Part shown: positions 400 to 10,271 of the stretch, piece by piece | How positions within the stretch are numbered: position 1 is the stretch's first letter | Layout of the letters: every line of letters starts with the position of its first letter | NCBI GenBank assembly: GCA_002788855.1 | Contig: PFSB01000016.1 | Coordinates: 1-55,195 of the forward strand | Direction of reading: 5' to 3' | Origin: Candidatus Roizmanbacteria bacterium CG_4_9_14_0_2_um_filter_38_17 | GTDB taxonomy: Bacteria; Patescibacteriota; Microgenomatia; GCA-00278855 | DNA length: 55,195 nucleotides | The notes under the pieces: generated by a model | Told to the model about the DNA's origin: nothing | The model's database searches: none | What the model saw: only the letters and a program-made list of their open reading frames with translations | Translations under genes and position numbers: made by a program

Positions 400-1011
400 A
401 TGGCAAATCTATTTGAATACGGAAAAAGACTACAGGAAGCAGCACTTGAGATAATCTCACTCATTGGTTCCGGTGAACACATTTCAAAACAAAAAAGCAG
501 AAAAATAATCACCCTCTTTGTCAAAATAGATGAAATAAAAAAATCCATAGTTTCAATTTTATTTCATGACAATGGGAGAGAAACCAGTGCAAGAGATAGG
601 ATTCTGGCTTATCTTAAATCCAATGTTGGTGAAAAAGTTTCTGGGAGAGAACTTTCTCAAGTAGGTGGGATTTCTGAATATGCACGTAGAATTAGAGAGC
701 TTCGTCATGAGCACGGCGGATGGCAAATCTCTACAGGCATGAATAGATCAGACTTAAGACCCGACGAATATCTATTGGAAAGCTTGAATCAACGGCCTGT
801 ATACGAAAGAATGAATGCCCAAGTCTGGGCTGAAGTTTTAGAAAGAGATAGCTTTACTTGTCAAAATTGTGGATGGAAGAAGGGTGATCCTCAAACAAAT
901 AATCGTAAATTCTTAGAGGTTCATCACAGGAATCCTGTTAAGGCTCAGGGTGAACCCACTATTGAGAACTTAATTACTTTATGCAATGTGTGCCACGATG
1001 CTATTGCTTAA
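400..1011 (+). CDS. HNH endonuclease with winged-helix-like N-terminal part
   Basis: Predicted DNA endonuclease, 203 residues. The C-terminal third shows a zinc-braced HNH site: CxxC at 154/157, the HH pair at 175-176, N190 and a second CxxCH at 195-199. Residues about 60-125 (GRETSARDRILAYLKSNVGE onward) resemble a winged helix common in HNH restriction enzymes of CPR and other bacteria, with the run ARRIRELR. The gene faces the C5-cytosine methyltransferase tail to tail with a 7-base gap, so the likely role is the restriction half of a type II restriction-modification system. That role is inferred from context; the HNH call is firm. A GATAAT box lies nine bases before the ATG, which would give a very short leader. 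Confidence 0.88.
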   Translation: MANLFEYGKRLQEAALEIISLIGSGEHISKQKSRKIITLFVKIDEIKKSIVSILFHDNGRETSARDRILAYLKSNVGEKVSGRELSQVGGISEYARRIRELRHEHGGWQISTGMNRSDLRPDEYLLESLNQRPVYERMNAQVWAEVLERDSFTCQNCGWKKGDPQTNNRKFLEVHHRNPVKAQGEPTIENLITLCNVCHDAIA

Positions 1012-1018
1012 ACCTAAG

Positions 1019-2056
1019 CTAATAGTTTGCTTCTAAGAATTCTTTTACAGTCAGTGCTATGTTGTAGGCCAGGTTGCATGGAACAGCATTTCCTATTTGT
1101 CTCCCCACAGAAGTTTGAGACCCTACAAATTCAAAGTTGTCAGGAAATGTTTGCAGTCGAGCTCCTTCTCGGAGAGTAATGGGTCGATCTTCTGTTGGGT
1201 GTAAGTACCTTCCTTTTTCGGGTTTATAGAACTCAGTTCTAACAGTTAACGATGGTTTGTCCCACCACAACCTGCCAAACACATCTGTACTGCCAGTTGG
1301 TTTGTTACGCCAACAATCTGGTAAAAGCTCATCTGGTAAATCAAATCGATTGCCCCCAGAGGGTACAGCTTTATATCTTTTTTGAGACAACTCTGTTGGC
1401 TTTCGTTCGGTGTGCCAATTTTTACCATCAGGCTTGCCAGGTAAACCTGCAAAAGCTTCTTTAACTGTGACCCAAGGTTTTTGGGTATCGGTAAAAAGAG
1501 TTTGACCTTTTGAATCAGTGTGTGTTGGGGATGGGTGTTTTAAGCCTGTTTTTTTAGCTGCTATTACAATAGCTCTTTGTCTTCTCTGTGGAACACCGTA
1601 GTTTGCCGCGTTCAAAATCTTTGTTTCTATGTGATAACCAAGTTCAGATGTGGCCTTTCTTACCTCTTCAAATTCTTGAGAAGATAATAATTCAGGTACG
1701 TTTTCCATAATCCACACTTTAGGAGAGAGGAGGCGTACTATTCGTAAGTACTCTTTCCACAATCTGTTACGAGGATCATTTTTTAGTTGTTTGCCTAATG
1801 CGCTGAATCCCTGACAAGGTGGGCCACCAATAATAATGTCAACATCTTTGCCCACAATGCTTAATATTTTTTCGTTATCTACCTTGGTAATATCCTTGCA
1901 GATAATTTCGGTGTTTGGAAAATTCTTTTTATAAGTCAAACAACTATCTTTATCGAAGTCAATTGCTAGGGTAGAGTCAAAACCAGCCATATGGAAGCCC
2001 TGCGTCATTCCGCCAGCTCCTGCAAATAAATCGATAACTTTATATTTTTTTGCCAT
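1019..2056 (-). CDS. dcm: DNA C5-cytosine methyltransferase (Dcm family)
   Basis: Transfers methyl from S-adenosylmethionine to C5 of cytosine in DNA. All main motifs are visible in 345 residues: motif I DLFAGAGG (9-16), motif IV GGPPCQGFS with catalytic Cys81, motif VI MENVP near 118, motif VIII QRRQR near 157, and motif X GRQIGNAVP near the C terminus, with a target-recognition stretch between VIII and IX. Length is typical for a solitary or type II enzyme. The start lies one base after the stop of the LexA-like gene, so both are probably on one transcript. The converging HNH gene is the probable cognate nuclease; the recognition sequence cannot be read from the protein. Confidence 0.95.
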   Translation of the reverse strand: MAKKYKVIDLFAGAGGMTQGFHMAGFDSTLAIDFDKDSCLTYKKNFPNTEIICKDITKVDNEKILSIVGKDVDIIIGGPPCQGFSALGKQLKNDPRNRLWKEYLRIVRLLSPKVWIMENVPELLSSQEFEEVRKATSELGYHIETKILNAANYGVPQRRQRAIVIAAKKTGLKHPSPTHTDSKGQTLFTDTQKPWVTVKEAFAGLPGKPDGKNWHTERKPTELSQKRYKAVPSGGNRFDLPDELLPDCWRNKPTGSTDVFGRLWWDKPSLTVRTEFYKPEKGRYLHPTEDRPITLREGARLQTFPDNFEFVGSQTSVGRQIGNAVPCNLAYNIALTVKEFLEANY

Positions 2057-2057
2057 A

Positions 2058-2657
2058 CTATTCTGTTCTAATTAATCCTACAAATACTCCGCGAATTTCA
2101 AGTTGCTCAGGAATAATTGTGTCATATCTGTGGTTTCTTGGCTCTAGAACTTTCTTTCCATTTTTCTCACCTAAAATTTTTAGAGTAGCTCCGTTTTCAG
2201 TAATGCCTACGACAACATCTCCAACATTGGCAGTCATTTGGTGTTTGATGAGGACAATATCATTGTCTAGAACTCCCATATCAATCATACTGTCACCCTT
2301 CACTTTGAGAGCGTAGTATGAATCGTTTTTGTTTAACTTGATATTTGTGGGAACCTGAATTGGTGTGGAATCTTCTATTGGTTCTATTGGTGTTCCAGCT
2401 GCTATGTATCCCAGCATAGGCACTGTTTGTTTCTGTGCGACAGAAATAATACCACGATTTTTGTAAGGATCACGTTTGAGGTGGCCTTTTTTCATGAGTT
2501 CCTGGACAAAGTACTGAGCGGTACTGAGATTCTCAGTTTTGAGAAACTGGGCGAGTTCTTTCAGAGAGGGAGAGTAACCCTTTGTGGAGATGAAGGAGTT
2601 TATGAAATCCAGGGCTTCTTTTTGTCTGTTTGTAAGAGGCTTGACGGATAAGGGCAT
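2058..2657 (-). CDS. lexA: LexA-like self-cleaving transcriptional repressor
   Basis: SOS-type repressor of 199 residues. The N-terminal winged helix (about 8-72, with TNRQKEALDFI) fits LexA. The C-terminal peptidase S24 fold carries the Ala87-Gly88 cleavage bond (IAAGTP), the nucleophile Ser123 in GDSM and the general-base Lys160 in ATLKIL. Spacing of these sites closely matches E. coli LexA (84-85, 119, 156). The gene precedes the cytosine methyltransferase by one base, an unusual placement suggesting it controls the restriction-modification genes as well as, or instead of, a general SOS regulon. Its promoter has a TTGACA box (2690-2695, minus strand), 17-base spacer and TAAAGT (2667-2672), and is overlaid with repeats. 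Confidence 0.88.
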   Translation of the reverse strand: MPLSVKPLTNRQKEALDFINSFISTKGYSPSLKELAQFLKTENLSTAQYFVQELMKKGHLKRDPYKNRGIISVAQKQTVPMLGYIAAGTPIEPIEDSTPIQVPTNIKLNKNDSYYALKVKGDSMIDMGVLDNDIVLIKHQMTANVGDVVVGITENGATLKILGEKNGKKVLEPRNHRYDTIIPEQLEIRGVFVGLIRTE

Positions 2658-2717
2658 ATTATGATAACTTTATGATAAATCTACAGTGATGTCAAGCGGG
2701 ACATCCAAAGAATAAGT
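2658..2717. promoter_or_regulatory. Divergent control region between lexA-like gene and TPR/PIN gene
   Basis: This 60-base gap separates two divergent operons. On the minus strand it holds TTGACA (2690-2695) and TAAAGT (2667-2672) with a 17-base spacer. Two direct copies of TTATGATAA (2659-2667 and 2670-2678), 11 bases apart, overlap the -10, about one helical turn. An inverted repeat GATGTC/GACATC (2688-2693 and 2700-2705) overlaps the -35. Either could be the operator of the LexA-like protein; which one is inference. No strong promoter is visible for the plus-strand gene. Confidence 0.6.
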
Positions 2718-5700
2718 ATGACTATGACAATTCTAGACAAAAACTACTTACGTTTTCAATTCAGAGACAGAATCTACAGAAGTAACGGCAGTGAGTTTCA
2801 GTCATTTTTTGAAGAGGTAATGCGAAAAGCATTTTCTGATTTCAAGAAAATAAAACCATCTGGTAAGGAAGGTGACGGGGGTAATGATGGTTATGTCCCA
2901 TCAAAGGGGATTTATTATCAAGTTTACGCTCCGATTAAACCAGAAGAAAGTGATTCCGATGCCGCCTCAAAACTCAAGAAAGACTTCGAAAAGAAGTTGA
3001 AAGAAAAATGGGAGTCTATATTAGATATCAAAAAATACTATTTTGCATTTAATGATAAGTATTTGGGCACAACTATAAAAATAAAAAAGGCTCTGAGTGA
3101 GCTAAAAGAGAAGAATAAAAATATTAAATTCAATTCGTTTACAGCGCAGGATTTGGAGGATGTCTTTTTTACTTTGAAGGAAGAACAAATTTTATCTTTG
3201 GGGTTTGACGTAGACTCCACTAAAGCTCTAAAAGTTGTCCGTGATTATTTGGAGAAACTTGAAATAGATTTGGATCGAGATAATACAACGTTCGTGATTA
3301 GAACTTTAGAGAATATTAAAGAAATTGCCGAGGCATTGTCAAACAATGATTTGAGTTTAGAGCTTGATATATTAGAGGCTCGTACTTTGCATAAAACTGA
3401 ACAAATAGCTCTGGCGAAAGAATACTACAAATCTCTTTGCAAGAGATATCCTAACGATTCCAGGCCATTCTTATATTTGGCCGAAATATATTTAAACGAA
3501 CGAGATCTCAGTAAAAATAAATCTTTATTAGATCAAGCTGAAAAGATTAGTGTAAGCTATTGGCTTTTGGAACTTGAAAAATTGATCCGCATGTACGCGA
3601 CTAATGAGAAAGTTGATCTTTCCTCAGTGAAGGAAAGCACCTTCCCAAGCGATCCTCGCGTCAAAGCAAACTTCTATAGGATTTATTCCGGATTTTATGC
3701 TGAATCAGGTGATTATACTAATGCTGATAGCTTTATAGAAAAAACCATTAAACTTAACCCTGACAAATTTAGTAGCTACGATGCCAAGCTTTCGATTTTG
3801 GAAAGAAGATATTTCGCCGAGGAAGACAAGGATAAGAGGCTTGAGTTGGTTGAAAGCTTTTTGTCTGAGGTTGAGTCAATAGAAACAAAAATACAATCTT
3901 GGGGGGAAATTGGGCCAAGAAATAAAGCTATTATTTGCTTCCGTAAATTCAATGCGTTTCGAATGCGAGAAGACTTGCCAGCCGTTGAACAATGTGCCAA
4001 GGATTGCTTCGAACTTATCTTAAAATGCCATTTCGATCACACGATTGACAACCTGCTTGTTGGTATCCTTACTTTTATTGAGTTACCAGAAAGCGACCTG
4101 AAAAAACTGTTTGACTATTTGGATAAGGCCCAAAAGCAGATATCCGATGATCTGGCTAAACGGCTGATTTTCCAATTTTCTCTTAAGGGAACATTATTTA
4201 CTGACGGGAAGGAATATTTTGCAAAGCATAAGAATAAAAAGTTTGTAGATTTTATATCTGATTTAGCAGACAAAAAATATGACGCAATATTAAGTTTTCT
4301 GGCAGATGATTCCTTATTTGCTGTGGCAATCGCCAATATTGCTAAGCATGATTCTGAGTTGAGGTTAAAAATAATTGAGAGTTTACCTAACGATGGTAGT
4401 GTTCAAAAAGATAAGCTCTTGCTACTTCTGAGCTACGATGAGGGCGACATGGATAAAGCCTTTGACCTTCTAAAAGGCTTTGATTTATCAGAAATGGGTT
4501 ACTTGGAATCTAGGCAAGTCCTGAAGATAGCTCAAAGCAAGAAGGCATGGGATTTCACAATCGTTTTACTAGAAAACCTATTGCAGCATGAAAAAGATCC
4601 AAAGTTAGTTTTGCAACTCAGACTTGATTTGTTTACTGCAAACTTCAATTTGGACAAGTTCAGAGAAGCTGCTCAGACTGGTGAGGAGATTTTGGCAGAC
4701 AAGCTGCAATTAAGTTTCCTAAGTGACAGGAATAAGGAAAGTCTTTTGGGCCAAACAATCTTGTCTAAAATCAACCGTGGAGAATTTGAGCCAGCGAAGC
4801 AACTTTTGGAAAGTTATCCTACTTTGATTACTTCACACGATTTTGTCTTGGGTGTTAAGGTTGATGTCTACCTGAAGAACAATGATGCACAAAGGGCTCT
4901 AGAGGCAATTGTTGAAGGAGTCAGGCTTATAAAAACACCTAATCCAGAACAGTATGCCCGTCTTTTTCTTTACTTTACTGAAATCGGCAATAGGATGGAT
5001 TTGCCTCTTACTTCTCTTGAGAGTGTTATAAAAAATAGTTTTGTAAAACTTAAAGATCAAGACCAGTGGTATTTTATTGGAGAAGATGAAGAATTGGATG
5101 CCACGAAAATTGTGCCTAAAGACGATCTTTACCAATTGTTTTTAGGTAAGAAAATTGGAGAATCAATCGAATTTGAAGAAAAATACAGGGCCACAAAGAG
5201 AAAACACGAGATAGAGCTAATTTTCCCTGTTGAGAGATATATTCTTTGGCAATGTAGGCATTTTGCGGAAAAGTTGACTGTCGAGAAGCGCTGGAAAGGA
5301 ATGGAAATTATAGATGTTCCGAGTACGGCTGATGGCGGAATAGATCCCAAATATCTTATTGCAAGGTTAGAGGATGATAAAAAATCTAGAGGAGACTTTT
5401 TTGATATGTACTCACAAAAACGTCTTCCTTTAGCTTTTCTTGCTGTTAACCAAGGTGGTCTTCCTGGTGCAATCGGAGCAATTCAAATGGAGCAAAAAGG
5501 TTATATTCATTTTAGTTCTGGTGATTTGGACGAAATTAATCAGCAAAAAGAAATAGCAAAGCGAATCATTTGTGGAGAAAAGTTTTATATAGACGGGACT
5601 TCAGCTTTAGTACTAAGCGAAACAGGGTTATTGGCTGATATTTATCAGCATTTATCTGGTTTAACAGTTCCTCAATCAGTAATTACTCTTTTACTTGAGA

Positions 5701-6542
5701 TTAATGATAAGTTTCGAGTTGTCCCTGGACAGGCAGGCAATATGGCATATTCACAAGGTAGACTAGTGTTTTCATCAGTCGATCCTGAGAAGAGAAGGAA
5801 AATTCGAAGTAATTTTTTGGAAGCCATAAAGCTTTTGGAATCCAAGCCAGAAAATGTAGAGGCAATTTCAAAAGCAAATAAAACTGGAGAGTTTTCCGAG
5901 AGGGGAATTGAGCCAGCTCTTAGTGATGCTTGCATTTTAGCACAAAGAGATCAGTTTCTTGTGTTAACAGAAGATTTTACATATCTCAAAGTGAACGAAT
6001 TAGAGACAAAGAAAACTGCTCCAGTTTATTGCTCAGCCTTCTCTTTAGTAAGAGTGCTTTATGAGATGGGTGAAATCGGATTTGACAAATACCTAGCATT
6101 CTTTAGTTATTTGGCTAGCTACCGATTTAGATTTCTACCAATTACAGTCGAAGACATCGAAAAGTCAGTATTTGGGGATGGAGATATCAAAGCATTTGCT
6201 CCAGAAAATATCCGATTATTTAATTTCCCATTAACGCTGTCTGAGGATTACGGAGTTCCATTTGATAGGGCATTTCCTGTTGTAGGTAGGTTTTTGGTAA
6301 AAATCTTGATGGACGACGCTTTGGTCCCAGAGATGGTGGATAAAATTTTTGTTGAAATATTGGAGACTTTCCCAACCAAGAATAAGAAAGAGTTGGGTCA
6401 AATGTTTTTAACTGTGAGTGTGAGAGTCATTAACAATATTCAAAAACGAATGGTGGTTAGTACGAAGGTGCAAGAAAAAGTTGATTCTTTGACCAGACTG
6501 ATCGAAATTTATGATGGAGAAGGAATAATTATTCCCCAATGA
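2718..6542 (+). CDS. Large REase-like/TPR/GreAB-C-like/PIN-like protein, predicted conflict effector
   Basis: A 1274-residue protein. Residues 25-75 look like a Mrr-type PD-(D/E)XK fold: GSEFQSFFEEV (24-34), GDGGNDGY (52-59, Asp57) and YYQVYAP (66-72), where Tyr70 takes the place of the usual Lys. Residues about 200-790 are helical repeats with TPR character (for example around 225-270 and 315-355). Residues about 796-850 (DLYQLFLGKKIGE onward) resemble the C-terminal domain of GreA/GreB. Residues about 955-1150 look like a PIN nuclease: YIDGTS with Asp959 and VLTEDF near 1083. I recall TPR-GreAB-C-PIN proteins from surveys of bacterial conflict systems, but cannot check that here. Two more genes follow at 3- and 13-base gaps. 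The role as a nuclease effector is inferred; ATG at 2724 is an alternative start. Confidence 0.72.
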   Translation: MTMTILDKNYLRFQFRDRIYRSNGSEFQSFFEEVMRKAFSDFKKIKPSGKEGDGGNDGYVPSKGIYYQVYAPIKPEESDSDAASKLKKDFEKKLKEKWESILDIKKYYFAFNDKYLGTTIKIKKALSELKEKNKNIKFNSFTAQDLEDVFFTLKEEQILSLGFDVDSTKALKVVRDYLEKLEIDLDRDNTTFVIRTLENIKEIAEALSNNDLSLELDILEARTLHKTEQIALAKEYYKSLCKRYPNDSRPFLYLAEIYLNERDLSKNKSLLDQAEKISVSYWLLELEKLIRMYATNEKVDLSSVKESTFPSDPRVKANFYRIYSGFYAESGDYTNADSFIEKTIKLNPDKFSSYDAKLSILERRYFAEEDKDKRLELVESFLSEVESIETKIQSWGEIGPRNKAIICFRKFNAFRMREDLPAVEQCAKDCFELILKCHFDHTIDNLLVGILTFIELPESDLKKLFDYLDKAQKQISDDLAKRLIFQFSLKGTLFTDGKEYFAKHKNKKFVDFISDLADKKYDAILSFLADDSLFAVAIANIAKHDSELRLKIIESLPNDGSVQKDKLLLLLSYDEGDMDKAFDLLKGFDLSEMGYLESRQVLKIAQSKKAWDFTIVLLENLLQHEKDPKLVLQLRLDLFTANFNLDKFREAAQTGEEILADKLQLSFLSDRNKESLLGQTILSKINRGEFEPAKQLLESYPTLITSHDFVLGVKVDVYLKNNDAQRALEAIVEGVRLIKTPNPEQYARLFLYFTEIGNRMDLPLTSLESVIKNSFVKLKDQDQWYFIGEDEELDATKIVPKDDLYQLFLGKKIGESIEFEEKYRATKRKHEIELIFPVERYILWQCRHFAEKLTVEKRWKGMEIIDVPSTADGGIDPKYLIARLEDDKKSRGDFFDMYSQKRLPLAFLAVNQGGLPGAIGAIQMEQKGYIHFSSGDLDEINQQKEIAKRIICGEKFYIDGTSALVLSETGLLADIYQHLSGLTVPQSVITLLLEINDKFRVVPGQAGNMAYSQGRLVFSSVDPEKRRKIRSNFLEAIKLLESKPENVEAISKANKTGEFSERGIEPALSDACILAQRDQFLVLTEDFTYLKVNELETKKTAPVYCSAFSLVRVLYEMGEIGFDKYLAFFSYLASYRFRFLPITVEDIEKSVFGDGDIKAFAPENIRLFNFPLTLSEDYGVPFDRAFPVVGRFLVKILMDDALVPEMVDKIFVEILETFPTKNKKELGQMFLTVSVRVINNIQKRMVVSTKVQEKVDSLTRLIEIYDGEGIIIPQ

Positions 6543-6545
6543 GCT

Positions 6546-7259
6546 ATGAAACAAATAACATCGATAATTAAATTCAGATATGGACGAATAAAAGATGTTT
6601 CTAGTCCACATAAAGACAAAAACCGAGTTGAGGTGTGTTTGAAAAAGATGGCGGACAATGCCATTGAGGTTGTTTGTTCATTTGAAGACACTGATATATC
6701 CAAAGATCAAGCAATAGACTATGCAATTAAAGCAACAGATATGATCGCTTTAATTAATTCGTTGAAAACAGAGGTTAACTCTGAATGTAGCTACAACGTT
6801 AAAATGCACTGGCAGGAAAGTGATGGAGCTTCCATTCAAGGGAGAGTTTCTTTGCAGGCTCGTGCAGCTGCTGCATCTGAGGTCAATTGTGAAATCTCAG
6901 GGTGTTTAAATATTGATGTTGAAAATATTCAAGATTCAATGAATCATCAACAATCATTTGAGTGTTTTAATAGGGCTCTGCAACACAAGGAGTCAGGTCA
7001 GCAGGATACAAGTGCTATAGCAATATGGCTTCGATTGTCTTGGGAAGCATTGCAAATGGAACTTGGTTTGTCAGAACAGCAACTAAAGAAGGAAGTTGTA
7101 AGAGACAAAATTCTTTCAGATAAAATTTTGGGTGATTTTAAATACTCTGTCGGTGAGTACTATGTCCATAAAAAAAGAAGATCTGGAGGAAATAAAAAAC
7201 CTATTTCCATAGAATCCTGTACTAATAATATGCGAAAAATCCTCCTACATTATCTATGA
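6546..7259 (+). CDS. Uncharacterised protein, second gene of the TPR/PIN operon
   Basis: I do not recognise this 237-residue protein. It begins three bases after the stop of the large TPR/PIN gene, so it is almost surely cotranscribed. The first half (about 1-125) has alternating strand-like segments and two conserved-looking cysteine sites (SECSYNV, NCEISGC). The second half is helical, with the stretch AIWLRLSWEALQMELG around 160-175 that recalls HEPN-type or Apea-like helices, although no RxxxxH motif is seen. No signal peptide or membrane segment. It may be a partner, sensor or inhibitor of the large protein; this rests only on position. Confidence 0.6.
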   Translation: MKQITSIIKFRYGRIKDVSSPHKDKNRVEVCLKKMADNAIEVVCSFEDTDISKDQAIDYAIKATDMIALINSLKTEVNSECSYNVKMHWQESDGASIQGRVSLQARAAAASEVNCEISGCLNIDVENIQDSMNHQQSFECFNRALQHKESGQQDTSAIAIWLRLSWEALQMELGLSEQQLKKEVVRDKILSDKILGDFKYSVGEYYVHKKRRSGGNKKPISIESCTNNMRKILLHYL

Positions 7260-7272
7260 CTGCAAGCTAGAT

Positions 7273-7749
7273 ATGGAACATAAAGCCAATAATCAATACC
7301 GCACGATGCTTAGAGCATATCAGGAGCTCGAAAGGATTAGTACCAATAACGGAAACAAAATCTCTTTTGCTGATCCAGATTACGAAGTAAGAAACTTCTT
7401 CATCCATTGCTATCATCTCAAGGATAGTTTGAAAAAAGATTCAACTATTACTCTCAAGGAAGATGTCGAGAAATTTATTACTAGAAGCAATTCACTTAGC
7501 CTTGCTGCGGATTATGCCAATTCTTTCAAGCATGGTGGTTTAGATAGAAAAACTAGATCAAACAAAACTCTGGGCAAAACAAACAAACATCTGCGTCTTG
7601 ATCTGACATCAACTGGTTTTGTCGGTTCTGCCCGGATGGAATTGACAATAAGTGGAGAAAAATATGATGCCTTTACTCTTGCTACTGAATGTATCGATGA
7701 ATGGAACAACTATCTTAAAAGAAATGAGATCTTATTTAAAGATGAATAG
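7273..7749 (+). CDS. Uncharacterised HEPN-like helical protein, third gene of the TPR/PIN operon
   Basis: A 158-residue soluble protein starting 13 bases after its neighbour. The run EVRNFFIHCYHLKD (38-51) contains an R-x4-H pattern (Arg40, His45), the signature spacing of HEPN ribonucleases, and is followed by SLAADYANSFKHGG near 90-100. I recall similar proteins with 'NCYHLKDWL...ADLCNGSKH' patterns in many bacteria, usually annotated hypothetical. Together this suggests a helical nuclease or nuclease-like subunit acting with the PIN protein. The motif is seen; the activity is inferred. Confidence 0.6.
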   Translation: MEHKANNQYRTMLRAYQELERISTNNGNKISFADPDYEVRNFFIHCYHLKDSLKKDSTITLKEDVEKFITRSNSLSLAADYANSFKHGGLDRKTRSNKTLGKTNKHLRLDLTSTGFVGSARMELTISGEKYDAFTLATECIDEWNNYLKRNEILFKDE

Positions 7750-7879
7750 TTAAAAATCTATTTATTTCCTTCACCGTCCACTCCGGATACTCCAATTCGC
7801 TCACCCAATCAATTCGTCCGAATTCATACCATCGTTCGAGCCCGATAAGACAAAACTTCGAATTTGTGTAATGCCTCTG
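7736..7879 (-). pseudogene. Coding relic without a start codon
   Basis: The minus strand has 47 codons open between two stops, ending at 7736 inside the 3' end of the HEPN-like gene. The translation (…GLERWYEFGRIDWVSELEY…) has strongly protein-like composition, but there is no start codon. It looks like the C-terminal remnant of a lost gene; the family was not identified. Confidence 0.35.
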
Positions 7880-7880
7880 T

Positions 7881-7886
7881 TATAAT
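7881..7886 (+). promoter_or_regulatory. -10 element giving a leaderless start
   Basis: TATAAT, then six bases, then the GTG start at 7893. The transcription start predicted from this box falls on the start codon itself. Confidence 0.65.
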
Positions 7887-7892
7887 TCAAGG

Positions 7893-8240
7893 GTGATAAT
7901 TACATCGGATAAACCATATACAAAACAGCAAATTGAGAAGCTTAAGGAGCAGTTTGATGTATATATTAAGACAGTAATTGATGTAGATAGAAAAGTTTGC
8001 TCTGCTGGATGTGATCGTCATTTTGATAGTGAACAGGTGCTGCTAAAACAAGATAGCAAGCAAGAAAGCATATGGGGTGGAGGAGTAGATTTAGAGACAA
8101 AGATGATAGATTTCAATTCATTTATCAACATTAGGCCTGGACAGGATAATCGAAGTAATGAAATTCAAAATTCTAAAGTAAGAGATAAATATGAAAAATT
8201 AACTAAATTTTTCTTTCAGAAATTATATGGAGAAAAATAA
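7893..8240 (+). CDS. DUF5674 family protein
   Basis: A 115-residue protein of unknown function that matches the pattern I know as DUF5674: an N-terminal MIITSDKPY segment, a KTVIDVDRKVCSAG strand, an acidic VLL turn, the run SKQESIWGGG and the closing FNSFINIRPGQDNRS. The family is common in CPR genomes. It starts with GTG six bases after a TATAAT box. It overlaps the next gene by 14 bases, and the two form a tight pair. Small size, pairing and the accessory setting are compatible with a toxin-antitoxin-like module, but no catalytic motif shows this. Confidence 0.7.
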   Translation: MIITSDKPYTKQQIEKLKEQFDVYIKTVIDVDRKVCSAGCDRHFDSEQVLLKQDSKQESIWGGGVDLETKMIDFNSFINIRPGQDNRSNEIQNSKVRDKYEKLTKFFFQKLYGEK

Positions 8241-8490
8241 AATTGCTATTTCATCATTAGCGCTTGATCTAAGACGCGTTGCTCAGGCGTATTACCGATC
8301 TTCTGATAGGGTTGCGGAGAGATTCATGAGCGAAGCAATTAGAAGAAAAGCAGAGGTAGATACTAGCTTAACGCCTAACTACATAAGAGAGCTTTTGTAT
8401 AAAGTACAACAACGTTCAACAGATCCAAAAAAAGATGCCGAAAAGTATCTAATGTACAGTGTTCTTTTTCAGAACTATGCAGTTACATAG
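8227..8490 (+). CDS. Small helical protein paired with DUF5674
   Basis: 87 residues, all helical in appearance (ISSLALDLRRVAQAYYRSSD at 8-27, then ERFMSEAIRRKAEVD). It has no membrane segment or known motif. The start overlaps the end of the DUF5674 gene, so translation is probably coupled. I recall similar short partners beside DUF5674 in CPR genomes. A role as antitoxin, adaptor or DNA-binding partner is guesswork. Confidence 0.6.
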   Translation: MEKNKIAISSLALDLRRVAQAYYRSSDRVAERFMSEAIRRKAEVDTSLTPNYIRELLYKVQQRSTDPKKDAEKYLMYSVLFQNYAVT

Positions 8491-8543
8491 GTTCTAACCA
8501 CGTCTCCTTCTTTCATTCCTTCAACAAGTTCAGGACTATTCAG
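8491..8543 (-). repeat. Dispersed repeat, SPELVEG type, copy 1
   Basis: About 50 bases nearly identical to 12699-12749, each abutting the stop of the gene or gene fragment before it. The shared core includes CTCCTTCTTTCATTCC and CAACAAGTTCAGGACTA. On the minus strand the core reads SPELVEGM in translation, a peptide often mis-called as protein in genomes carrying the common CTTCGACAAGCTCAGG-type repeat; this looks like an AT-rich form. Confidence 0.7.
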
Positions 8544-8657
8544 AATCTAGGATTCCTCAATATTTTCGGAACTTGCAGCATACGGGGGAGCTAGGCCGAG
8601 CGATCGGCGTAGGTTATCAACAAGGGGTGCGTCTTGAGAATCGTTCCCAACGACCAC

Positions 8658-8686
8658 TTGACAAACCCAGTTGGATTGTTTATTCT
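8658..8686 (+). promoter_or_regulatory. Promoter of the abiE pair
   Basis: TTGACA (8658-8663), 17-base spacer, TATTCT (8681-8686). The GTG at 8698 lies 11 bases further on. AbiEi proteins are known to repress their own promoter, so an operator probably lies here, but none was defined. Confidence 0.55.
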
Positions 8687-8697
8687 ATAAGTAGATA

Positions 8698-9507
8698 GTG
8701 CCTATAAAAGGGTACTTAAGCTATATGAAACAAACTATATTAAATACTAATCAAAGCACACTTCTCGAGAATCTGATCGTCAAACACGGCCAGATTGTGA
8801 CCTCTGAGCAGATTTATGACCAGGCTGAGGGTTCGTGGGATCAACAGAGGACAAAGAAGGTCATTGCTAAATTAACCCAAAATGGCTGGTTGATTAGAGT
8901 GAAAAGGGGTTTATATGCCATCTCTGACTTGAGTAATCGCGGGTTTTTGTCCCTGTCGCCTTCTGTGGTGGCTAGTCTCCTGGTTAAAGATTCCTATGTT
9001 TCTTTTGAGTCGGCTTTAGCATATTATAGTATGTTTGATCAGCTTACTAACAAAACTATCTCTATTTCGCGAGCGCAATACAAGTCAGTCCAGTTGCAAT
9101 CAGTCGAATATAGCTTTGTGAAAGTGCTAGACAAGTGGTTCTTTGGCTGGCAAGAGGTGACTATTGATAATAAGACGGTACATATGGCGACTGCTGAAAA
9201 AGCCTTAATTGACATGATTCAGTTCCATAAAAGCAAATATACCGTTGATTTAGTGGTGGAAAAGCTCTCAATGTATAAAAGCTCACTAGATTTGCAAAAA
9301 ATGATTGAATACTTGGGTAAGATGTCTTTAACTACCATTAAGACATTTGGTTTCCTGTTTGACCTTTTAAGGATTGATTCTAGTGACCTTTATAATCAAG
9401 TTAAGTTAAAAAGTACTAACTTGATGTTGTCTCACGATGCTAAATTTAATGCCAAATGGCGACTCTATTACGACGAGTATTTTGATAAATATCAGTCAGT
9501 TAAATAA
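8698..9507 (+). CDS. abiEi: AbiEi-type antitoxin (winged-helix regulator)
   Basis: Antitoxin of a type IV toxin-antitoxin system, 269 residues. The N-terminal winged helix covers about 20-80 (SEQIYDQAEGSWDQQRTKKV, LTQNGWLIRVKRGLYAI), and the antitoxin domain follows, with SPSVVASLLVKDSYVSFESAL and a TAEKALIDMI motif typical of the AbiEi/COG5340 family. The nucleotidyltransferase partner begins five bases downstream. In known systems AbiEi represses the operon and counters AbiEii toxicity without stable complex formation. The start is ambiguous: GTG at 8698 fits the promoter, ATG at 8725 (MKQTILN) is the other candidate. Confidence 0.85.
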   Translation: MPIKGYLSYMKQTILNTNQSTLLENLIVKHGQIVTSEQIYDQAEGSWDQQRTKKVIAKLTQNGWLIRVKRGLYAISDLSNRGFLSLSPSVVASLLVKDSYVSFESALAYYSMFDQLTNKTISISRAQYKSVQLQSVEYSFVKVLDKWFFGWQEVTIDNKTVHMATAEKALIDMIQFHKSKYTVDLVVEKLSMYKSSLDLQKMIEYLGKMSLTTIKTFGFLFDLLRIDSSDLYNQVKLKSTNLMLSHDAKFNAKWRLYYDEYFDKYQSVK

Positions 9508-9512
9508 TCCCT

Positions 9513-10271
9513 ATGCTTACTCGGCAACAACTTGAAATAATCAATCGGAAAAGCTTACGTTATCCGTTGCACGTCGCCGAAAAGGATTATTTCCTAGCTC
9601 TGGTAATGCAAATTATTGCAGCTTCCTCGACTGGCAAAACTCTTATTTTTAAGGGTGGTACAGCTTTACACCATTGTTATTTGGACCAGTATCGTTTTTC
9701 CGAAGACTTGGATTTTTCTTCAAATCGGATGCCATTACCCCTTGAAGAGATGCACAATATATTTGATAACATCGATTATTTGAGTATCAAGAAAGAGTAT
9801 CTCTCTAATGCCACTATTAAACTAGAAAAACTCCAATACTCCGGACCACTGCTTCAACCCAACTCGCTCAAGGTAGAAATTGATTTCCTGCAAAATGTGC
9901 TACTACCTTCTCAAACCTTGGCTTACAACAATGTCTGGGGTGTGGATTTTATGGTTGCTATTATGGATATTAAAGAAATATGTGCTGAGAAAATCCGAGC
10001 TATGAGTGATAGAGCTCGTTACCGGGACTTTTATGATATCTACTTACTTTTGGAAAAGTACAAGTTGGATCTGGATGAAATTGTCTCGTATGTCAGGCAG
10101 AAGGAAATTCGCCGACCTATCACCAAGGCTAGCATTCAAACCAACTGGAAGGTGATTGCGACCGAAAAAGAGCAGGAAATGGGCCAGATCTATTACTCCA
10201 AGCAGATAGAGGATAGTCAGATTGAGACACTAATCCAAAGTCTACCTTTTGACAGTATTGTGGCTGTATAA
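9513..10271 (+). CDS. abiEii: AbiEii-type nucleotidyltransferase toxin
   Basis: Toxin partner of AbiEi, 252 residues, DUF1814/AbiEii family of the DNA polymerase beta superfamily. The key nucleotidyltransferase motif is intact: FKGGTALHHCYLDQYRFSEDLDF at about 44-66, with the GG and the SEDLDF Asp pair. A later KICAEKIRAMSDRARYRDFYDIYLL block (about 155-180, here EICAEKIRAM) is also typical. Known relatives block growth by nucleotide transfer and give abortive phage resistance. The gene is complete and follows the antitoxin by five bases. Confidence 0.9.
   Translation: MLTRQQLEIINRKSLRYPLHVAEKDYFLALVMQIIAASSTGKTLIFKGGTALHHCYLDQYRFSEDLDFSSNRMPLPLEEMHNIFDNIDYLSIKKEYLSNATIKLEKLQYSGPLLQPNSLKVEIDFLQNVLLPSQTLAYNNVWGVDFMVAIMDIKEICAEKIRAMSDRARYRDFYDIYLLLEKYKLDLDEIVSYVRQKEIRRPITKASIQTNWKVIATEKEQEMGQIYYSKQIEDSQIETLIQSLPFDSIVAV

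Follow-up and report, generated by a model that had tools for sequence, protein, structure and literature searches.

The window analysed here is the whole 55,195 nt of contig PFSB01000016.1 (assembly GCA_002788855.1; 1.09 Mb in 28 contigs, 98.85% complete) from Candidatus Roizmanbacteria bacterium CG_4_9_14_0_2_um_filter_38_17. It contains three adjoining open reading frames (ORF1, ORF2 and ORF3), the first of which encodes a large protein with REase, TPR, GreAB-C and PIN regions, and a LexA-like gene that lies 60 bases from ORF1 in divergent orientation, with a DNA methyltransferase gene next behind it (Table 1). An earlier sequence-only reading had put forward the three ORFs as a candidate for an undescribed defence system; the divergent LexA and methyltransferase genes were absent from it. 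We propose that the locus is a LexA-gated, layered defence cassette with ORF1 as its changeable effector arm, a reading to which we give about even chances and in which LexA binding, the RecA trigger, the repression of ORF1, nuclease activity and the order of action are predicted from sequence. ORF1 is a further member of a family that has been predicted and published, and is not undescribed; the part that looks new is the LexA-methyltransferase context upstream, not ORF1 itself.

An accessory LexA clade linked to DNA methyltransferases

The LexA-like protein of the window matched LexA in the PDB at 1e-22. It resembles the LexA/SOS repressor in its DNA-binding and S24 domains, its cleavage site and its Ser/Lys dyad (A87-G88, S123 and K160 are present). 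It differs in belonging to a clade apart from the class's control LexA genes, of which many are linked to UvrB, and in the linkage or fusion of that clade to DNA methyltransferases. Four S24 matches were found in the genome, among them the window LexA and those at C19, C13 and C9. The LexA at C13 lies beside a UvrB-like gene and is 34% identical to the control LexA genes, versus 28% for the window LexA. It is likely the housekeeping copy and, because of this UvrB-like neighbour, the window LexA is probably not. The C19 LexA shares 84% identity with that of the window; downstream of it is an Eco57I-type enzyme, and on its other side a divergent operon that includes a large helicase.

LexA-like proteins were found in 346 of the 373 genomes of the class. 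An accessory set of 18 was made up of all 17 listed matches from other genomes with at least 49% identity plus the C19 copy, and was compared with 17 control LexA loci that were hand-picked from listed matches with ordinary frame lengths and are not a random draw; some contigs in both sets end short of 7 kb. The accessory LexA formed one clade (FastTree support 1.000) versus the controls. Directly downstream of the accessory LexA gene, a methyltransferase was found in 13 of the 18 loci (fused to LexA in one, L075) and Vsr followed by a C5 methyltransferase in four. The remaining locus, L077, has neither, with a C5 methyltransferase 6 kb off. At none of the control loci did the flanking DNA retrieved, at most 7 kb on each side, contain a relative of the methyltransferases or Vsr. 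The difference in linkage (17/18 versus 0/17) has a nominal Fisher p of 4e-9, which is overstated as the loci are related by descent. The self-cleavage set is also kept in the accessory relatives, Ser, Lys and Gly in 18/18 and Ala in 17/18.

Eight further LexA proteins, chosen for their long frames from 15 listed matches with frames of at least 380 amino acids besides L075, were scanned, and all eight are LexA-methyltransferase fusions with 41–48% identity to the window LexA. Single-chain fusions of LexA to N6/N4, Eco57I-type or C5 DNA methyltransferase domains were seen in L075 (5812–7629), L058, L059, L060, L062, L064, L065, L066 and L069. Searches of open-licence papers, judged by titles and abstract openings, gave no description of a LexA-methyltransferase linkage.

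In the window the methyltransferase gene is convergent with an HNH nuclease gene. This pair (400–2056) recurs beside an accessory LexA gene in L079 (8046–9680), at 39% and 56% identity, and because of this recurrence it is probably a restriction-modification pair. Two other accessory loci, L074 (2683–7297) and L027 (5520–10137), share the same Eco57I-type enzyme and second methyltransferase after LexA, and their divergent genes look different. Serine recombinase-like proteins were recognized by eye in the flanks of accessory LexA genes at L072, L077, L078, L079 and L081, which suggests mobile cassettes.

The window and C19 share a near-identical operator region between lexA and the divergent gene (Table 1), and three of the four differences between the two gaps are at the ORF1 end. 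The first 20 codons of the two lexA genes are identical at 58 of 60 bases and the rest at 403 of 537; over the whole gene, 76 codons differ silently and 33 in a way that changes the amino acid. The lexA promoter element was found with no more than 2 of 24 mismatches in all eight inner-clade loci, and with at least 9 in the other 10 accessory and the 17 control loci; the consensus was derived from the same sequences, so these counts measure conservation and do not test it independently. In all nine inner-clade sequences, the window included, the element ends 6–7 bases before the lexA start codon. A tandem of TTATGATAA was considered as the operator and set aside, as conservation across genomes indicates the wider lexA promoter element instead. 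A consensus promoter scan of positions 2000–8700 found 12 sites, fewer than in shuffled sequences (mean 19), and gave no support.

Domains and relatives of ORF1

By its predicted domains ORF1 is a TPR-GreAB-C-PIN conflict protein with an N-terminal REase effector domain, for which action on the polymerase and transcript is predicted. The domain order proposed from the sequence alone was borne out by a PF20698 PIN match, a GreA match and a LmuA-like N terminus, and the conflict family named in that reading is the correct one. The system is not undescribed, as the architecture, including the REase N terminus, was published in 2021 (Kaur et al., eLife, PMC8195603). The section of that paper on the family describes a constant TPR, GreA/B-C and PIN core with 13 exchangeable N-terminal domains, REase and HNH among them, encoded by mostly standalone genes. 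It proposes that GreA/B-C docks on RNA polymerase and PIN cuts the extruded transcript, the target being a phage-hijacked polymerase. ORF1 has the identical core order and one of the listed N-terminal effectors; it differs in having a divergent LexA-methyltransferase operon before it and two non-conserved small genes after it. No LexA-methyltransferase-type regulator is mentioned in that section, and no experimental test of the family was found in the available parts of PMC8195603, PMC7159879, PMC13092281 and PMC9122601. The DS-3 and DS-5 systems (DefensePredictor, PMC13092281), described there as requiring their catalytic residues for phage defence, also contain a PIN nuclease; comparing by description only, no TPR or GreAB-C core is named for them in the parts of that source available.

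PF20698, the Pfam family named for the TPR-GreAB-C-PIN system, scored 27.4 bits against ORF1 in a protein scan (cut-off 27.8) and 30.3 bits, above the cut-off, in a six-frame search. The candidate PIN acids are D959, D1070 and D1086; D1086 is kept in the Fluoribacter relative described below and in L015, and D1070 is Glu in L015. The TPR region was matched by TPR_14 (3.6e-4, below its cut-off) and other weak TPR models, and TIGR02917 matched residues 194–382 (E 1.5e-8) far below the model cut-off. For the GreAB-C region, a profile of 30 same-class GreA proteins was compared by hhalign with 110-column slices slid along the ORF1/Fluoribacter alignment. The three slices holding residues 770–823 whole gave probabilities of 82–83%, and partly overlapping slices 42–47% and 22%. 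Elsewhere in ORF1 the probability was at most 2.2%, and a slice ending at residue 794 gave 0.9%. A single-sequence hidden Markov model placed a weak GreA match at the same site (5.0 bits; −3.8 bits at the matching Fluoribacter site). PDB sequence searches found nothing significant with ORF1 alone, with the REase alignment or with the ORF1/Fluoribacter GreAB-C pair, the last giving no GreA. An AlphaFold2 run on residues 695–1274 of ORF1 and one relative had a mean predicted local distance difference test (pLDDT) score of 39.9.

Of 104 plasmid records matching ORF1, 40 were listed, and 39 of these match by the N-terminal part (one, H1, by the C-terminal part only); identity of the N terminus to the plasmid proteins is 30–38%. 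Three N-terminal plasmid relatives were opened, two of which (L020 and L021) are in annotated ABC-three-component (ABC-3C) loci, the third (L022) being annotated as hypothetical. In the alignment of these three with ORF1, D57, G58, Q68 and V69 are invariant and residue 70 is Y or F. The QxY core that had been described as a variant is therefore present, as a pattern of the family and not a sign of decay. The domain is homologous to the ABC-3C REase effectors and Lamassu LmuA; it differs in being fused to TPR-GreAB-C-PIN, and there is no ABC/SMC ATPase or middle component here. Pfam and PADLOC scans detected no SMC/ABC ATPase partner among the ten genes between 400 and 10271. In the phage collection only the N-terminal domain was matched, in seven Klebsiella phage records, and the viral contigs contained no relative of ORF1, its C-terminal alignment, ORF2, ORF3 or the ORF3 alignment.

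Relatives over the remainder of the protein were few. A Fluoribacter dumoffii plasmid protein matches residues 428–1211 at 26% identity and, where ORF1 has the REase domain, begins with a segment resembling HNH_2 (E 0.0051, under the cut-off). The only locus from the scan of genome contigs was in Legionella bozemanae; judged by eye, this element and that of the Fluoribacter plasmid are nearly the same. Among 379 genomes of the phylum, three had PF20698 (this one included, and one with a lone PIN protein), as did two of the 356 surveyed in the class (this one included). ORF1-type genes are rare and sporadic in the genomes surveyed. The L015 and L019 proteins are 42% identical to each other. Both have PF20698 and, by eye, REase-like N termini, TPR was found in L015, and GreAB-C was detectable in neither. 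Two further matches were rejected, one in G256 as a lone PIN protein of 174 amino acids below the family cut-off and one in G078 that covers 90 residues, with stops.

Proposed regulation of ORF1 by LexA

In the mechanism we propose, the LexA-like repressor, encoded in one operon with a DNA methyltransferase that adjoins the HNH candidate restriction enzyme, would bind the 60-base gap and repress the methyltransferase operon as well as the divergent ORF1–3 operon. The lexA and ORF1 start codons lie so close together (60 bases) that the ORF1 promoter should also be covered when the lexA operator is occupied. LexA in general is released by RecA-coated single strands, and the retained self-cleavage residues argue for such release here. 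Phage replication or DNA breakage would lead to RecA-coated single strands, LexA would cleave itself and ORF1 would be made. GreAB-C may then dock on RNA polymerase, with the PIN domain cutting RNA and/or the REase domain cutting DNA. ORF1 would act as a second line after restriction, probably cell-sacrificing, although the sequence does not tell cell killing from the silencing of phage transcripts. In a broader form, this LexA clade of a small-genome bacterial lineage may have left the SOS regulon and now serve as a shared switch for immune cassettes with two arms, in which a methyltransferase/restriction arm, sometimes fused to LexA, is paired with an exchangeable abortive-infection effector (CBASS, OLD/PARIS-type, AbiE or REase-TPR-GreAB-C-PIN) that DNA damage releases once restriction is breached. 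This extension is tentative, and on balance we lean against it.

PADLOC was run on 20 divergent-side proteins of the 18 accessory loci, one or two genes at each and not always the nearest. Matches of 1e-20 or better were found at ten loci (L072, L075, L077, L078, L079, L080, L082, L084, L085 and L086), including CBASS cyclases (1.9e-95 and 4.9e-83), OLD (3.2e-65), AbiEii (5.9e-25, on a frame of 96 amino acids) and PDC-S39. Among control-locus proteins, the matches were to PbeA/DinG helicase models (ten), mad3 (four, best 5.3e-98) and the AriA model (four, best 2.5e-7). Because the control proteins match helicase or ABC-type models, it is the specific matches (the two CBASS cyclases, OLD, AbiEii and PDC-S39) that carry weight.

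Several observations weigh against the proposal. The near-identity of the two gaps in this genome could be explained by gene conversion as well as by selection on a shared operator. The GATGTC dyad in the gap was seen at the two loci of this genome and at none of the 17 in other genomes. Divergence alone says little, as the nearest upstream gene is divergent at 12 of the 17 control loci as well as at 17 of the 18 accessory loci. The divergent neighbour at one control locus (L095) is UvrB by PDB search, five more are 58–61% identical to it, and nine of the 17 control loci have a divergent neighbour of 650–700 amino acids. On the accessory side, the divergent genes scanned at four loci (L071, L073, L074 and L027) had no PADLOC match and those at four others (L076, L081, L083 and L087) only weak ones, and matches at 1e-4 were also found among the 58 control-locus proteins. 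The evidence from the divergent side does not amount to a formal enrichment, because control proteins match PADLOC models too. No relative of ORF1 was found beside the other accessory LexA genes, and within ORF1 the candidate PIN residue D959 is Glu in the Fluoribacter relative.

One alternative is that ORF1 is an ordinary standalone TPR-GreAB-C-PIN gene in a defence island and that LexA regulates its own restriction-modification operon only, which would leave the closeness of ORF1 without meaning. This would fit the mostly standalone character of the published family and the other multidomain PF20698 loci: at L003 no LexA is annotated beside the gene, with umuD and an SOS-type peptidase more than 4 kb downstream, and at L015 an S24 protein with a weak LexA DNA-binding match (1449–2078) is found in line, 38 bases upstream of the PF20698 gene. 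L019 is uninformative on upstream layout, with only 125 bases of contig before the gene. We nevertheless consider this explanation unlikely, as promoters serving start codons 60 bases apart should overlap, and the layout of LexA and methyltransferase with a divergent gene recurs in other genomes with other effectors.

A second alternative is that the LexA-like protein is a controller of the restriction-modification type that times expression on entry to a new cell, methyltransferase first and dangerous nucleases later, with no part for DNA damage. Such controllers are familiar from type II restriction-modification systems, and the linkage to methyltransferase or Vsr in 17 of 18 loci and the direct LexA-methyltransferase fusions would be expected of one. 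A pure timer would not need the self-cleavage set, which has been kept almost throughout the accessory clade, and we regard this explanation as improbable too.

The LexA-gated cassette has partial parallels among known systems. CapH-CapP of CBASS likewise has, beside a defence effector, a repressor that is released in a DNA-damage-type manner; it uses two proteins, a repressor and a protease, whereas here there is one self-cleaving protein. The WYL regulators BrxR and CapW, as described in PMC9122601, are repressors that adjoin diverse defence systems, as the accessory LexA does. They differ in that the accessory LexA has a LexA fold with self-cleavage and not a WYL ligand domain; Pfam found only S24 and LexA_DNA_bind, and no WYL domain, in the window regulator. 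ORF1 alone is one more member of a predicted family. The LexA-methyltransferase linkage, if true, would matter more, as a self-cleaving switch that joins restriction and a back-up suicide effector at one promoter, and the LexA clade offers a computational handle on new effectors encoded divergently from it as well as a bench-testable route to the order of defences.

ORF2, ORF3 and the surrounding genes

The three ORFs exist with the coordinates and spacing first described (Table 1), all on the forward strand with gaps of 3 bases between ORF1 and ORF2 and 13 bases between ORF2 and ORF3. The claim that the two small genes are conserved components did not hold. ORF2 was found in 1 of 379 genomes (this one, with no match in the other 378) and had no relative among plasmids or viral contigs. 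It had no match in Pfam, PADLOC or PDB searches and only a chance-level match in NCBIfam; its match to PHROG 32782, of unknown function, has an E value of 0.0015. For ORF3, too, Pfam, PADLOC and NCBIfam gave no family; the gene was found in 3 of 379 genomes (this one, G152 and G224) and two plasmid records. The gene lists show neither ORF1 nor ORF2 adjoining the ORF3 relatives in G152 (L014), Streptomyces pSV2 (L009) and Paraburkholderia pOLGA1 (L008). The relative in G224 (L013, 34–1488; 61% identity) is, by eye, a fragment beside a transposase-like gene. Conversely, no relative of ORF2 or ORF3 was found in the DNA fetched around the three other multidomain PF20698 loci (L003, L015 and L019, the last with its short upstream contig).

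The HEPN-type R-x4-H string reported for ORF3 is present (R40-x4-H45) and is not conserved: R40 and H45 are both absent from all three relatives whose sequence spans the site. The relatives keep H48, and an R-x6-H spacing to H48 was seen by eye in L014 alone. The motifs conserved among the relatives (L014, L013, L009 and L008) are HLKD and ADxxNxxKH. The AlphaFold2 model of ORF3 is a helical bundle with a pLDDT of 72. Foldseek gave no match to it at E 0.001 or better, and its VIA Z of about 8 to HEPN toxins was similar to that for unrelated bundles, so that no family was singled out or excluded. PDB sequence searches with the ORF3 alignment or ORF2 gave nothing significant. The shared strand, the short gaps and a modelled bundle with HEPN toxins among its structural neighbours would suit a distinct three-component system in which ORF2 and a HEPN ribonuclease, ORF3, are obligatory partners of ORF1, but this is very unlikely and not supported, given PF20698 loci without the partners, ORF3 relatives without ORF1 or ORF2, the absence of R40 and H45 from the relatives, and structural matches no better than those to other helical bundles.

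Table 1. Features of the window around the divergent lexA and ORF1 genes
Feature	Position	Strand	Details
HNH nuclease with winged-helix domain, candidate restriction enzyme	400–1011	+	Pfam HNH 7.8e-11; PADLOC REase_II 4.6e-9
C5 cytosine DNA methyltransferase	1019–2056	−	Pfam DNA_methylase 1.1e-74; directly downstream of LexA-like gene
LexA-like repressor, accessory paralogue	2058–2657	−	Pfam Peptidase_S24 7.4e-20, LexA_DNA_bind 4.3e-14
Divergent promoter/operator region, lexA to ORF1	2658–2717		60 bases; 56/60 identical at second LexA island of genome
Tandem TTATGATAA-CT-TTATGATAA, candidate operator/−10 region	2659–2678	+	Exact pair (spacer 0–4) twice in 1.09-Mb genome, at two LexA islands
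lexA promoter element TTGAC-N3-ACTGTA-N-A-N2-TATCATAAA-N-TTA	2665–2695	−	0 mismatches in window
Dyad GATGTC-N6-GACATC, candidate operator	2688–2705		Two exact genome sites, both at LexA islands; none with 1 mismatch
ORF1	2718–6542	+	1274 amino acids, predicted REase-TPR-GreAB-C-PIN protein
REase-type effector domain (predicted), ORF1 residues 1–160	2718–3197	+	D57/Q68-V-Y70; Lamassu LmuA match at residues 13–142, E 6.8e-10 (PADLOC)
GreAB-C-like domain, ORF1 residues 770–823	5025–5186	+	hhalign probability 83%, E 8e-6 versus 30 GreA proteins
PIN domain (predicted), ORF1 residues 957–1090	5586–5987	+	PF20698 E 4.5e-6; D959, D1070, D1086
ORF2	6546–7259	+	237 amino acids, orphan
ORF3	7273–7749	+	158 amino acids, helical; HLKD and ADxxNxxKH conserved

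The defence setting suggested for the three ORFs was confirmed. Ten more proteins scanned farther along the contig (12.9–27.0 kb and 50.6–53.5 kb) belong to metabolism, translation, transport or helicase/repair, or had no match, and on this basis the defence island probably spans roughly the first 10 kb. An AbiEi/AbiEii type IV toxin-antitoxin pair is found at 8698–10271, 1 kb downstream of ORF3.

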